This document shows positions 8,088 through 51,872 of a stretch of 64,000 bases of DNA, in pieces. Position numbers and translations under genes: made by a program. The stretch is from contig NZ_JAODIW010000005.1 of assembly GCF_026586625.1 (NCBI RefSeq), forward strand, positions 62,001 through 126,000. The letters run 5' to 3'. The stretch's first letter is position 1. Every line of letters begins with the position of its first letter. The stretch comes from Halobium salinum. Its GTDB lineage: Archaea; Halobacteriota; Halobacteria; Halobacteriales; Haloferacaceae. The notes beneath the pieces are model-generated. The model saw only the letters and a program-made list of their open reading frames with translations, was not told the DNA's origin and ran no database searches.

Positions 8088-9236
8088 TCACTCACCGACA
8101 GTGAGGCTGTCGTCCCACGCGTCGTTGTCCTTGTAGTACTGGGCCGCACCGGGGTGGACCGGGATGCTCTCGCGGGCCGAGCCGTACATCTCCTCGACGT
8201 TGGCGAAGTCGTTGAACTGGGCCTCGCCCTCGTTGACCACGTCGTTGTTCTCGTAGACGACGCGGCAGAGCTCGTAGACGGCGTCGTTGTTTGCCGCGGG
8301 GTTGAACGTGTAGTTGACTTCGAGGTCCCAGTGGAACAGCTCGTCCGTGTCGAACTCCAGGTTGCCGAGCTGCCAGTCGCTGTACGGCGTCGTGCTGGCA
8401 CCGGCCCCGCCGTAGGACTCGGCGGACTCACGGAGCGCGTCGGTCGGTTCGACGTAGTGGACGTCGAGCCGCGACGCGATTTCGGTCACCCAGCCGGTGT
8501 ACCGGACGCCGGGGGTCCCATAGGCGATACAGGCGTCGATGTTGCCCTCCTCCATCGCGCCGGGCGCGGAGTCGACGCCCATGTTCTGGATTTCCATCTG
8601 GTCGTAGACGTCGGCCGTCGGGTCTTGTGACCAGACGTCGAGCGTCGTCGCCCGCGTCGAGTAGCCCGGTTCGGCCGGGTAGACGTTCGCGCCCGCGAGG
8701 TCGTCGAACGTCTCGATGCCCGTGCCGTCCCGAGCGATGACGTAGATGCTGTAGGGGAACGCGTAGAACCCGTAATGCGGGATGCGCTCGACGCCTTGCT
8801 CGGAGAACTGACCCCGGCCCTCCTGTGCCTTGAGCAGGGAGTTGTTGTCGGTGATACCCGCGTTGAACTGACCCTGAGCCATCCGGTAGATGGTCCCGAT
8901 GTATCCGGGGCTCTCGATGGTGGAGTAATCGAGCGAGTCGCTGGACTGGCTGACGGCGCGTTCGACGGCCAGTCCCACGTCGCGGGTCCCGCCGGCGGAG
9001 GTCCCGACGCGCAGCGAGAGGTCGCCCGAGCCGCCACCACCGCCGCCGCCGGACCCGCCGTCGCCGCCGCTGCTATCGTTGCCCGAGCCGTTGTCGCCGC
9101 CGGACTCACCGTCGCCGCCACTGCTATCGTTGCCCGAGCCGCCACCGCCGGTACAGCCGGCCAGGCCGATGACGCCAGTAGCTGCCGCACCGTACAGGAA
9201 CTTGCGCCGCTGCATGCTTTCGTCAGACATCGTCAT
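8088..9236 (-). CDS. TAXI-family TRAP solute-binding lipoprotein
   Basis: A 382-residue secreted substrate-binding protein. It has a twin-arginine signal (QRRKFL, residues 9-14) and lipobox LAGC with Cys28. A Gly/Ser/Asp linker (about 29-75) is followed by the TAXI domain beginning LSLRVGTSAGGTRDVGLAVE. The linker holds an internal duplication (see 9061-9141). It first-serves the fused permease encoded next in the same operon. ATG 9236 is used; an ATG two codons later (9230) is equally possible. A TATA-like element on the minus strand around 9260-9267 fits a leaderless start. Confidence 0.88.
   Translation of the reverse strand: MTMSDESMQRRKFLYGAAATGVIGLAGCTGGGGSGNDSSGGDGESGGDNGSGNDSSGGDGGSGGGGGGGSGDLSLRVGTSAGGTRDVGLAVERAVSQSSDSLDYSTIESPGYIGTIYRMAQGQFNAGITDNNSLLKAQEGRGQFSEQGVERIPHYGFYAFPYSIYVIARDGTGIETFDDLAGANVYPAEPGYSTRATTLDVWSQDPTADVYDQMEIQNMGVDSAPGAMEEGNIDACIAYGTPGVRYTGWVTEIASRLDVHYVEPTDALRESAESYGGAGASTTPYSDWQLGNLEFDTDELFHWDLEVNYTFNPAANNDAVYELCRVVYENNDVVNEGEAQFNDFANVEEMYGSARESIPVHPGAAQYYKDNDAWDDSLTVGE
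9061..9141. repeat. 51-bp-spaced duplication in binding-protein linker
   Basis: Bases 9061-9090 recur at 9112-9141 with one mismatch, 51 bp apart, encoding the repeated GSGNDSSGGDG unit of the lipoprotein linker. This is typical slippage in a low-complexity linker and keeps the frame. Confidence 0.85.
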
Positions 9237-9649
9237 TGATGGACAATACCGGCGTGCTTAACAATCTATTCATTTTTTTCGCACACGTTTGTTGGCGACG
9301 CTCGTTCACTTCTCGAGCGATATCGCCGCTGGAATTGGAGAAGCTACGTGAAAGCGGTGAAGACCCGCTCTGCAGTGGCCAACGTGCTAGCTCGCCGTTC
9401 GGTTGCGCCGGCGCGGCGGTGTGGCCCGCGTCACGGGCGCGTCGACAGAATTAATCGACTTCGACGGTCACGCGCACGTCGCCGCCGGATTCGGTCGGGG
9501 CTGCACGAGGGTCCCGTACTGAACAGGTCGCCGGATTCTCGACGAAGGCCGGCGTTCACGGGAGCGCTGCTCTCGTGCAGTGTGGAAGACGCGCCGCGTT
9601 GTCCGTGCACACCGGAACGGCTCCGTCGCTCCGGATACTGCCCACGAGA

Positions 9650-9919
9650 AGTGCCATCGGCACTCCTCGGGACGACGCAAGCACCGCAGGAGAGCGAACG
9701 CAGTGAACGACCCGAGGGGCATGATTCGAGAGAGCAAAGCCCTCCCGTCGTTGTCGGACTGCGTCCGGCGAGCGGTCAGAGCCCTTCGAGTTCTGACGAC
9801 ATCACCGGAACGCGAAGCGTTCCGGTTTGCAACTGGAGCCGACGGCTCCGGCGACGTCACGATAGGCCGGCGGTGCCGGCCTTTCGAACGACCGCGAGCC
9901 GTCCGAGTCGAGGACTCGG
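9650..9919. repeat. Array of short perfect stem-loops with 3-nt loops
   Basis: Five perfect inverted repeats, each with exactly three unpaired bases: 9650-9664 (6-bp stem, loop atc), 9804-9826 (10-bp stem, loop gaa), 9835-9849 (6 bp, gac), 9864-9882 (8 bp, ggt) and 9903-9919 (7 bp, gag). The last four are spaced roughly 30-40 bp apart. Further looser repeats lie at 9665-9671/9711-9717 (7 bp) and 9775-9780/9792-9797 (6 bp). Function is unknown; it could be a structured RNA, a recombination-prone repeat or a decayed mobile element. Confidence 0.8.
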
Positions 9920-10000
9920 GGCCTTCCGTAACTTGCTCACACGTTCCCCCTGCTGCCGGTCTCTCTCCCGACTAAATACCGCCGTGCGAGCAAGGGAAAG

Positions 10001-10008
10001 GCTAAACA
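10001..10008 (+). promoter_or_regulatory. TATA-like box for UxaA-like cluster
   Basis: GCTAAACA is centred about 27 bp upstream of ATG 10031, consistent with a leaderless transcript of the three-gene cluster. Confidence 0.45.
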
Positions 10009-10030
10009 GGAATGAACGTGACCATCAACC

Positions 10031-11221
10031 ATGGTAGATACGTTCACGGGGTACCGGCGAGCCGACGGCCGCGTCGGCGTCCGCAACCACGTCGCGGTCC
10101 TCCCGACGTCGGTGGCGGCGTCGGCCGTGGCGGCCCGCGCCGCCGAGGAGGCGGGCGACTGGGCGCGGGCGACCCCACACCAGATGGGCACCTCACAGCC
10201 GGACCCGGCACGGGAACAGACCGAGCGCGTCCTCGCGGGCGTCGGGCGCAACCCGAACGTGGGCGCCGCGCTGTTGCTCGAACTCGGCACCGAGGACGTC
10301 GACGCCGACCGTATCGCGGACCGAATCGTCGAGACGGGGACGCCGGTCGAGACGCTCTCGATTCGGGAGGTCGGGGGTACCCGCGCCGCGGTCGAGCGGG
10401 CGGGGGAACTGCTCGCCGACCTGAACGCCGTCGCGGCGGACACCCGCCGCGAGGAGGCCGACGCGAGCGAACTCGTCTTCGGCGTCGAGTGCGGCGGGAG
10501 CGACGCCACCAGCGGCATCGCGGCGAACCCCGCCGTCGGCAACGCCTGCGACCGACTCGTCGAGGCCGGCGGCACCGCCAGCTTCAGCGAGACGCCGGAG
10601 TTCATCGGCGCGGAGCACGTCCTCGCCGAGCGCTGTGTCGACGACGAGACCAGGGAGCGACTCCTCGACCGCGTCGAGTCACGCGAAGCCGCCGCAGACC
10701 TGATGGGGGTCGACCTCCGGGGTGCACAGCCCTCCCCCGGCAACAAGGAGGGCGGGCTGACGACCATCGAGGAGAAGAGCCTCGGCGCGATCTCGAAGGG
10801 CGGGACGACGGCCGTCCGAGGAATCGTCGACTACGCCGAGCAGTTCCCCGTCGGCGGCGGGCTCGTCCTCATGGACACGCCCGGCTACGACGTGGAGAGC
10901 GTCGTCGGCAAGGTCGCCGGCGGCGCCCAAGTAGTCGCGTTCACGACGGGCCGGGGGAGCACCACCGGAAACCCCATCGCGCCCGTCATCAAGGTGACGG
11001 GCAACCCGAAGACCTGGGACCGGATGGCCAACAACATGGACGTGAACGCGAGCACCGTCATCGGCGGGGAGTCCCTCGAATCCGTGGGGGGGCGCGTGTA
11101 CGACACCCTGCTCGACGTCGCGGGCGGCAGGCGCACGGAGGCCGAGCGCCGCCGACTGGAGGAGTTCGCCGTGAACGAACTCCAGCCGAACGAACTCGCG
11201 GCCGGGAGGGCCGAGCCATGA
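10031..11221 (+). CDS. UxaA-family (altronate/galactarate dehydratase) large subunit A
   Basis: A 396-residue protein matching the large domain of altronate and galactarate dehydratases. It retains the second-half signature ECGGSDATSG (Cys154) and ANPAVG, and the SPGNKEGGLTTIEEKS and VIKVTGNPKTWDRM motifs. The first-half iron-binding signature, normally H-x-x-G-C-G, reads TPHQMGTSQ (residues 48-56), and the usual GLGCE reads LELGTED, so both expected Cys are lost. Its stop overlaps the SAF-domain gene by ATGA, and the SAF gene in turn overlaps a second large-subunit paralogue. Known members make 2-keto-3-deoxy acids from hexonates or aldarates. I infer it works as part of a hetero-oligomer. 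Confidence 0.83.
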   Translation: MVDTFTGYRRADGRVGVRNHVAVLPTSVAASAVAARAAEEAGDWARATPHQMGTSQPDPAREQTERVLAGVGRNPNVGAALLLELGTEDVDADRIADRIVETGTPVETLSIREVGGTRAAVERAGELLADLNAVAADTRREEADASELVFGVECGGSDATSGIAANPAVGNACDRLVEAGGTASFSETPEFIGAEHVLAERCVDDETRERLLDRVESREAAADLMGVDLRGAQPSPGNKEGGLTTIEEKSLGAISKGGTTAVRGIVDYAEQFPVGGGLVLMDTPGYDVESVVGKVAGGAQVVAFTTGRGSTTGNPIAPVIKVTGNPKTWDRMANNMDVNASTVIGGESLESVGGRVYDTLLDVAGGRRTEAERRRLEEFAVNELQPNELAAGRAEP

Positions 11222-27130: not shown

Positions 27131-28327
27131 ATGAGCAATCAGACCCAATCAGATACCGCAGCGGGTCGCCCGACCGAGGGGCGCCCGCCCGAAGACACGA
27201 ACGTTCGCATCGACGACATCACCAAGGTGTTCGAGGAGAGCGACGGCGGCGAGGTCGTCGCCGTCGAGGACCTCAGTATCGACATCCGCAAGGGGGAGTT
27301 CCTCGTCCTCGTCGGCCCCTCCGGCTGCGGGAAGACGACGACCCTGCGCACCGTCGCCGGTCTAGAGAGTCCGACCGAGGGCGCCATCCGCATCCAGGGA
27401 ATGGACGTCACCGAGCTCGACCCGCGCGAACGGGACATCTCGATGGTGTTCCAAAACTACGCGCTGTACCCCCACAAGACGGTACGCGAGAACATCTCGT
27501 TCCCACTGGAGGTCAGGAGCTTCCCGAAGGACGAGACCGAGCGGCGCGTCGAGGAGGCGGCCGACCTGCTCGGCATCACCGAGCTGCTCGACCGCAAACC
27601 CAGTGCGCTCTCGGGGGGCCAACAGCAGCGCGTCGCCCTCGGACGCGCCATCGTCCGCGAGCCCGCGGTCTTCCTAATGGACGAGCCGCTGTCGAATCTC
27701 GACGCGAAGCTCCGCGTGCAGATGCGCACCGAGTTGAACGAGCTGCACAAGCGCGTCGGCAAGACGACCATCTACGTCACGCACGACCAGGCGGAGGCGA
27801 TGACGCTCGGCGACCGCATTGCCGTGATGAACGACGGCCAACTCCAGCAGATCGGGCCGCCACAGCAGCTGTACGATCGGCCGACCAACCGGTTCGTCGC
27901 CGGCTTCATCGGCGAACCGCCGATGAACTTCTTGCCCGCAGAACTCGACTCGACCGGGGACGGCTACCGCGTCCGGACCGAAGCGTTCGACTTCGACCTG
28001 CCGCGGGAGAAAGCCGCCCTGTTGGACGAGAGCGGACGCTCGCCCGACAGCGTCACGCTCGGTGTCCGGCCGGAGGACATCGACGACGCCTCGCTCGTCG
28101 AGTCGGGGCCGAACCGGGCGCGGTTCGAACCGTACGTCAAACTCACTGAACCGATGGGGTCGGACAAGTTCCTCACGCTCACGCCCGAGGCGGGCGAGGG
28201 TCAGGAGCTGACCGCGCGGGTGTCGCCCGACAGCGACGCCGAGGAGGACGAAACGACGACGTTGTCGGCGAACTTGGAGAAGGTCCACCTGTTCGACGAC
28301 CGTACCGGAGACAACCTCACGCGCTGA
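27131..28327 (+). CDS. Sugar ABC transporter ATPase (MalK/UgpC-like, first system)
   Basis: A 398-residue CUT1-type ATPase. Walker A GPSGCGKTT is at residues 62-70, signature LSGGQQQR near 158-165, Walker B VFLMDEPLSNLDAK near 178-191 and switch His in VTHDQAEAMT near 214. A MalK-like OB/TOBE regulatory domain occupies about 250-398. I use ATG 27131 because the extra upstream codons in frame (to 27080) are Arg/Thr-rich and unlike the family. Such ATPases often serve several sugar ABC systems, so it might also power others. Confidence 0.9.
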   Translation: MSNQTQSDTAAGRPTEGRPPEDTNVRIDDITKVFEESDGGEVVAVEDLSIDIRKGEFLVLVGPSGCGKTTTLRTVAGLESPTEGAIRIQGMDVTELDPRERDISMVFQNYALYPHKTVRENISFPLEVRSFPKDETERRVEEAADLLGITELLDRKPSALSGGQQQRVALGRAIVREPAVFLMDEPLSNLDAKLRVQMRTELNELHKRVGKTTIYVTHDQAEAMTLGDRIAVMNDGQLQQIGPPQQLYDRPTNRFVAGFIGEPPMNFLPAELDSTGDGYRVRTEAFDFDLPREKAALLDESGRSPDSVTLGVRPEDIDDASLVESGPNRARFEPYVKLTEPMGSDKFLTLTPEAGEGQELTARVSPDSDAEEDETTTLSANLEKVHLFDDRTGDNLTR

Positions 28328-44596: not shown

Positions 44597-44666
44597 GGTT
44601 ATCGTAGCTCCTCGTAGAATTCTCGCCCCCACGGGGGGCGAGAAACTCCGTCCGGCTACGATAACC
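44597..44666. terminator. Nested 70-nt hairpin element downstream of SDR gene
   Basis: An outer perfect 12-bp inverted repeat (GGTTATCGTAGC at 44597-44608, its complement at 44655-44666) encloses an inner perfect 11-bp hairpin (44620-44630 and 44634-44644, loop acg). It starts four bases beyond the SDR stop codon (minus strand) and ends 115 bp before the cupin start. It is best explained as a strong 3'-end structure, though a small mobile element or processed RNA is possible. Confidence 0.6.
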
Positions 44667-51549: not shown

Positions 51550-51872
51550 GGACTGAGGGTCGACCTCCAGGCCCCTGCGTTTCACGGTCCCGTTTGGTCG
51601 ATCGACTCACTGAGCAGAGGGATGGCGGCGAGTGGCCGAACAGCCGCTTTTGGGTGGGAATTCGGAAGGGGCCGGGTTCTCGGCGAACGCGGCCGACGCA
51701 AGCACTGGAGCGAGGCGGAGCCGAGCGAAGCGCGCAGCGAGGCCCCGGATCCGAGAACCCGGGGGCTTCCGTATCCATCGATTCGACGCTTGTCCCTCCG
51801 GTTTTATCATAGCTGACCACTACTCAGAAAACCACCCCAAGCGTGAAGCGCCGTCCCGTCACACGAACACAC
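51550..51872. other. Intergenic region with structured repeat and promoter
   Basis: No gene seen in these 323 bp. The centre is the inverted repeat at 51663-51771. To its right GTTTTATCAT (51801-51810) is a TATA-like element that would start a transcript near 51830-51840, upstream of the Gfo/Idh gene. Confidence 0.6.
51663..51771. repeat. 109-bp imperfect inverted-repeat element
   Basis: Left arm CGGAAG (51663-51668), three unpaired bases, then CCGGGTTCTCGG (51672-51683). The right arm has the exact complements (51751-51762 and 51766-51771), again with three unpaired bases. The 67-bp interior carries GACGCAAGCACTG and repeated gagcga-type words, also found in the hairpin block at 9672-9710. 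Both regions end in a CTTCCGTA string. This suggests a shared intergenic repeat family. Confidence 0.7.

Follow-up and report, generated by a model that had tools for sequence, protein, structure and literature searches.

A dispersed extragenic repeat of haloarchaea combining a conserved folded rod with interchangeable triloop hairpins

Results

A worn copy of a repeat in a gene-free block of the Halobium salinum genome

The stretch of DNA analysed here, referred to as the window, is 64,000 nucleotides of the Halobium salinum genome. Within it, a gene for a TAXI/NMT1-type solute-binding protein (8088-9236, minus strand) and an altronate-dehydratase-type gene (10031-11221, plus strand) border a block in which the gene caller finds nothing and which is without coding support, as a preliminary description of this DNA had stated. 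The same description had pointed to a row of perfect stems with 3-nt loops at 9650-9919, and five such stems of 6-10 bp are indeed present there. Dinucleotide-preserving shuffles of the block (n = 2,000) gave on average 0.14 perfect 3-nt-loop stems of 6 bp or longer and never more than 2, with 5 reached in 0/2000; 270-nt tiles across the 64-kb window hold 0.26 on average. The constant loop length was thus rightly judged not to be a chance effect, and we will see below that this bias is family-wide.

Comparison of 9237-10030 with its own genome by BLAST matched 38 places. Five pieces of the window (9537-9577, 9541-9697, 9640-9720, 9722-9898 and 9893-9933) are 80-91% identical to other copies, and this similarity places the whole element, long and partly degenerate, at about 9530-9933 on the plus strand. 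The hairpins do lie within 9650-9919 as first described, but the element itself reaches further. The fold of 9486-9934 has a z-score of -4.8. The block is one worn, module-rich and partly decayed copy of a dispersed extragenic haloarchaeal repeat, and the five-hairpin row consists of optional, interchangeable arms of the rod that forms the repeat's core.

All parts of the window copy read on the plus strand. The basal stem of the rod is formed by a degenerate 5′ arm, GGATTCTCGAC (9533-9543), and a 3′ arm, GTCGAGGACTC (9907-9917), which is followed by the family 3′ end GGGGCCTTCCG (consensus GGGGGCTTYCG, from comparison of copies); the arms make 8 Watson-Crick pairs, 2 G-T pairs and 1 mismatch, and the homologous stem covaries in the family. 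Downstream of the 5′ arm lies a cassette hairpin of 9 bp (one G-T) with a 3-nt loop (9557-9577), a position at which copies L010-L014, L019, L026 and L033-L035 also have a 3-nt-loop hairpin. The next cassette hairpin, at 9584-9604, again with a 3-nt loop, is degenerate in the window and intact in L010 (GGAAGACGC/GCGTCTTCC). The 6-bp hairpin AGTGCC-atc-GGCACT (9650-9664) is a cassette in many copies. It precedes a conserved distal segment of the rod with tandem GA motifs, GACGCAAGCACCGCAGGAGAGCGAACGCAGTGAACGA... (9673-9730), detected by BLAST and by our covariance model R1 (31 bits, E 4e-4). The matches are modular: 9537-9577 and 9640-9720 abut in L011-L014, whereas in the window further sequence separates them.

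Next comes a multi-hairpin arm. Its position a (9728-9746) is a degenerate stem with loop AAA between the linkers GATTC and GTCGTTG, assigned by the linker rule and by its match to L009, and its position b (9755-9767) is CGGAC-tgc-GTCCG, a sixth perfect stem of 5 bp. Then follow a 10-bp hairpin, ACCGGAACGC-gaa-GCGTTCCGGT (9804-9826); the 6-bp GGAGCC-gac-GGCTCC (9835-9849), whose loop ends could extend the pairing and which has homologues in L009, L015 and L017; and the 8-bp AGGCCGGC-ggt-GCCGGCCT (9864-9882), which leads into a conserved linker. The order of linkers and hairpins (hp) in the arm is GATTC-hp-GTCGTTG-hp-GCGGTC-hp-GACGACATC-hp-TTGCAAC-hp-GGCGACGTCACG-hp-TTCGAACGAC, which parallels L009 when the two are aligned by eye. 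The last of the five perfect hairpins, the 7-bp CCGAGTC-gag-GACTCGG (9903-9919), shares sequence with the 3′ arm of the basal stem, and other copies lack a hairpin there, so it probably arose by accident.

The window contains a second copy, a minimal and intact rod element at 51656-51771 on the plus strand (R1 102 bits, E 5e-18). Long perfect 3-nt-loop hairpins of 10 and 11 bp also occur at 27905-27927 and 44620-44644, with no match to the family model.

The rod keeps its pairing while its sequence changes

Minimal copies, about 115-125 nt long, are imperfect-palindrome rods interrupted by GA/GA internal loops and capped by a C(GNA)G loop. Alignment of short copies defines a core of about 106-124 nt. 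Its ends are GGGRCTYCGRAAGGGGCCG and CGGGGGCTTYCG, also written GGGRCTYCGRAAGGGG and GGGGGCTTYCG, and its conserved middle is CGACGYAAGCACCGCAG...GAGCGAACGCAGTGAGCGA...GAGGAGCGCAGCGAG. From the base upwards, the rod has 6 bp, a GGG/GGG internal loop and a variable stem of about 13 bp, beyond which short helices are parted by GA/GA-type internal loops up to the terminal triloop.

In nine short copies, two-sided changes affect 18 of the 38 pairs and 96.4% of cells are paired, compared to 33-42% when the partners are slid. Two larger sets, A5 with 64 distinct sequences drawn from many genera and A3 with 61 from named genomes, each show two-sided change at 32/38 pairs, with 97.3% and 94.9% of cells paired, respectively. 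None of 500 shuffles reached the observed values, and sliding gave 32-44%; it should be noted that both sets were aligned by R1 and are thus tilted towards its structure, although the slid controls are still far lower. G-U pairs are tolerated at two rod positions (15/64 and 8/64 sequences). Where RNA folds of the core ended in a triloop (n = 115), the loop was GNA in 88, of which 81 were C(GNA)G. In single-stranded DNA, triloops of the cGNAg type and tandem sheared GA pairs have an unusual stability. Since pairing persists in the stems through an almost complete change of sequence, the folded shape seems to be conserved for some purpose.

Cassette hairpins are exchangeable and almost perfectly paired

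Longer copies carry perfect hairpins set between conserved linkers. In twenty related copies of the Halobium salinum genome (8,370 nt), perfect stems of 7 bp or more have a 3-nt loop in 47 cases, a 4-nt loop in 6 and a 5-nt loop in 7, whereas the corresponding numbers for the 64-kb window are 31, 27 and 14. The preference for 3-nt loops is therefore real and common to the family.

An alignment-free search for the two-hairpin form by its linkers alone (GTGGTTC-N-GTCATCAC-N-GAACGACAG) found it in 58 of 188 genomes, from 28 genera, while the reversed linker pattern, used as a control, had no match in the same 188 genomes. The 104 distinct modules recovered contain 208 free segments, of which 195 are of odd length, 179 have a 3-nt loop and 158 are perfect. 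The stems are variable yet complementary, with 1,729 Watson-Crick pairs, 11 G-T pairs and 16 others. Loop triplets and their reverse complements occur at roughly similar frequencies (GAA 39/TTC 38, TCC 23/GGA 21, TTT 15/AAA 8). Within a module, the two stems were identical in 0/104 cases, as against 10.9 expected if they were drawn independently. A few stems, GAGAGAGC, GAAAGGCGC, GAGACGCC and GAAAGACGC, recur across genera and swap places.

The repeat is abundant and confined to haloarchaea among the genomes searched

Model R1 finds at least 71 copies in the Halobium salinum genome and matches 161 of 194 Halobacteria genomes, in 58 of 66 genera; per-genome copy numbers in this survey rest on at most 18 scored candidates. 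Named carriers include Halorussus, Halonotius, Halobellus, Halomarina, Salinarchaeum, Natronococcus, Halorarius and Haladaptatus. In a draw of genomes from the same phylum, 0/124 outside Halobacteria had an R1 match, and the 19 positives all fell among its 24 haloarchaea. We considered bacterial relatives and rejected them: seven bacterial contigs fit a loose pattern only and are taken as chance because they have no covariance-model match. A viral or plasmid origin was likewise discarded, as the exact-pattern search of viral contigs gave zero matches, phages gave none, and haloarchaeal plasmids gave only weak and partial matches, mostly without an annotated feature.

A description of the element is absent from the open-licence literature that we searched, although an account in a subscription journal is possible, and the RepRanger survey of archaea (PMC12306157) mentions no haloarchaea (it has no word beginning 'Halo'). 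The dispersed triloop-hairpin repeat is thus apparently undescribed so far.

Copies lie between genes, in some genomes at a regular distance from start codons

All 81 scored copies lie clear of called genes. The distance from the 3′ end of the element to the next start codon is 99 nt (sd 10, n = 21) in the congeneric genomes G003 and G012, and 115 nt (sd 21, n = 21) in Halobium salinum. Uniform placement in the same gaps would give standard deviations of 81 and 103, and the observed tightness was reached in 0/20,000 simulations each. This tightness may partly reflect where insertion is tolerated, because the uniform null ignores promoter and terminator exclusion zones. The distances are wider in a further genus, g2. 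Where both neighbouring genes are on the same strand, copies run with them in 34 cases and antisense to them in 18, a mild orientation bias linked to transcription. Many copies in G003 and G012 are paired head-to-head, mostly 26-32 bp apart. Among L277-L306, the five copies that face a convergent downstream neighbour have 48-58 nt between their 3′ end and the stop codon of that gene.

Among relatives, no genome matches both genes flanking the window copy together. Between G003 and G012, we could compare eight core pairs at five orthologous sites with flanks 86-90% identical. The rod is kept at most of them, while the basal stems are almost wholly different at some (GAGGCTGTGGAC/GTCCACAGCCTC vs. 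GGCCAGCTACGG/CCGTAGCTGGCC, for example). Ten species of genus g2 similarly keep the rod at one site despite stem change, and the same site is empty in several other species (14-31 bp between the flanks). These sites point to a constraint at the level of the family and do not prove stepwise compensation, since conversion of the whole core would give the same picture. At one orthologous site (L303 against L306, between G003 and G012), the interior of the rod is inverted while its outermost ends keep the same orientation.

Some copies have further repeated or structured DNA around them. In genus g2, the 3′ end of the element and about 40 bp of adjoining DNA form perfect tandem arrays (57 bp x 4.2 at L083:1276-1516; 51 bp x 3.4 at L091:1344-1516), and similar but diverged repeats adjoin other copies. 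A subgroup (L137:924-1502, L227-L232, L068-L092) shares a conserved upstream leader with GGCTGGGGAGGTGTGAGG and GTGCGAGGGATGAG, which often lies between divergent copies hundreds of bp apart, has further variable hairpins and may be a second structured domain.

Five copies ride in IS6-type MITEs

Copies L011, L012, L013, L022 and L024 are inside units of 230-364 bp with ends NGTCGTGTTTAGTT...AACTACACATCGCC and perfect 8-bp target duplications. A 697-bp element with the same 5′ end is assigned to the IS6 family because its 217-aa protein matches DDE_Tnp_IS240 (PF13610). These five copies therefore demonstrably ride in IS6-type MITEs; IS6-like ends with a target duplication were not found for the window copy or for most others. 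The end of the 697-bp element sits about 50 bp from the ends of several contigs (C2, C9, C10, C12 and C13); the assembly breaks at its copies. A search for the Y1/REP transposase (PF01797) gave no match in the Halobium salinum genome, as against 5 of 14 control genomes. TnpB has six matches in this genome, five of them above the family cut-off, and 0/6 lie near a copy.

Discussion

The preliminary description left a choice between a multi-stem RNA and a repeat family. The repeat family is now demonstrated, whereas RNA as the working molecule is unsupported. We think it likely, on balance, that the block works as structured DNA, in the manner of a long and modular REP/BIME, rather than as an RNA gene. 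When intergenic DNA is underwound or single-stranded, folding of the marked strand would create the rod, which a host factor would recognise by shape and not by sequence. The rod might then act to constrain supercoiling or to insulate the promoters beside it, or it might be a landing or transposition site. Copies would have spread as non-autonomous passengers, some inside IS6-type MITEs and the rest by another route.

The foremost competing explanation, which we hold to be unlikely, is a multicopy structured non-coding RNA or UTR element that acts after read-through transcription. The very strong covariation, the fold of one strand, the conserved unpaired purines, the mild co-orientation bias (34 vs. 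18) and the tight spacing to the next start codon would all suit an RNA, and the GA/GA loops and one-strand fold, being equally fitting for RNA, do count in part against structured DNA, as do the two rod pairs that tolerate G-U. However, there is no TATA-like box within 160 nt upstream of any of 54 cores, many copies are antisense to both neighbours, and head-to-head pairs leave no room for a promoter; the strand symmetry of the cassette loops, the near absence of G-U pairs in the cassette stems and the inverted rod interior likewise argue for DNA. Known RNAs were also looked for and set aside: nothing in the window reaches an Rfam gathering score, and there is no tRNA or tmRNA near the block. 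Structured DNA may itself carry a larger meaning, which we offer as speculation and do not expect to hold: a haloarchaea-wide DNA shape code, in which a one-strand rod with swappable triloop arms, under selection for shape and about 100 nt upstream of start codons, would be read by an archaeal protein, without a counterpart in bacteria, whose role would be to organise or insulate transcription units.

Perfect cassette hairpins could also arise without selection, through palindrome-perfecting mutation. In its full form, this explanation makes the perfect hairpins by-products of template switching at quasi-palindromes in non-functional repeats, with pairing unselected. It would account for cassette stems that are perfect and almost free of intermediate mismatches, for loops equally frequent in both orientations and for modules whose two hairpins are never identical (0/104 vs. 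10.9), as if identical neighbours deleted each other. Such a process would not maintain mismatched GA loops, a GNA apical loop (88 of 115 triloops), or linkers and a module layout common to 28 genera, and we consider it quite improbable as an account of the element. Descent from an IS605/TnpB transposon, as a PATE or omega RNA, is more doubtful again and was rejected: palindrome-bearing repeats of this kind are common in haloarchaea (PMC3119063), and one has been seen transcribed in a virus-host system (PMC10544981), but the TnpB genes of this genome are not adjacent to copies, the genome has no Y1 transposase despite its at least 71 copies, and the clean insertions seen here carry 8-bp duplications, a feature missing from PATEs. 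Ordinary terminators or a chance cluster of hairpins would fit the intergenic location; both are refuted by the shuffles (0/2000), the class-wide distribution and the covariation, and no T-run follows the stems.

Among known systems, the element most recalls the bacterial REP/BIME/REPIN elements (PMC3116915, PMC2817692, PMC3733652), which are likewise high-copy, extragenic, imperfectly palindromic and non-autonomous, with frequent inverted pairs separated by a short spacer. REPs, however, are 20-40 nt, against about 115-125 nt for the haloarchaeal rod, and carry a GTAG or CGTC tag at one end, which is missing from the element's consensus as read by eye. The element also differs in stems that vary freely while pairing is kept, in its swappable 3-nt-loop hairpin arms, in the lack of a Y1/REP transposase in the Halobium salinum genome and in its restriction to haloarchaea among the genomes searched. 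Given its length, missing tag, free stems and missing transposase, we regard the element as REP-like in its working and do not class it as a REP. PATEs are similarly short, non-coding palindromic repeats of haloarchaea, but are linked to IS605 ends and lack target duplications (PMC3119063), whereas our element has no TnpB/TnpA link in this genome and its five IS6-borne copies do have 8-bp duplications. The IS6-family MITEs account for a subgroup of copies, with 230-364-bp units and IS6-like ends; most copies, including that of the window, lack such ends, and the rod is far more widespread. With structured non-coding RNAs of Rfam the element shares a conserved fold and compensatory changes, but it has neither an Rfam match nor evidence of a promoter.

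These data extend REP/BIME-type elements to archaea, in a form that is longer and modular, with freely evolving stems under a pairing constraint, and that exists without the transposase that explains the bacterial REPs. They raise the testable questions of what folds or binds the element and whether intergenic DNA conserved in shape affects archaeal transcription or supercoiling. Globally, the repeat is an abundant, class-wide feature of haloarchaeal genomes that is unannotated in their records, and it may explain many GAGCGAAGCGAGCGA-like strings and many of the extremely perfect small hairpins found between genes in these organisms.
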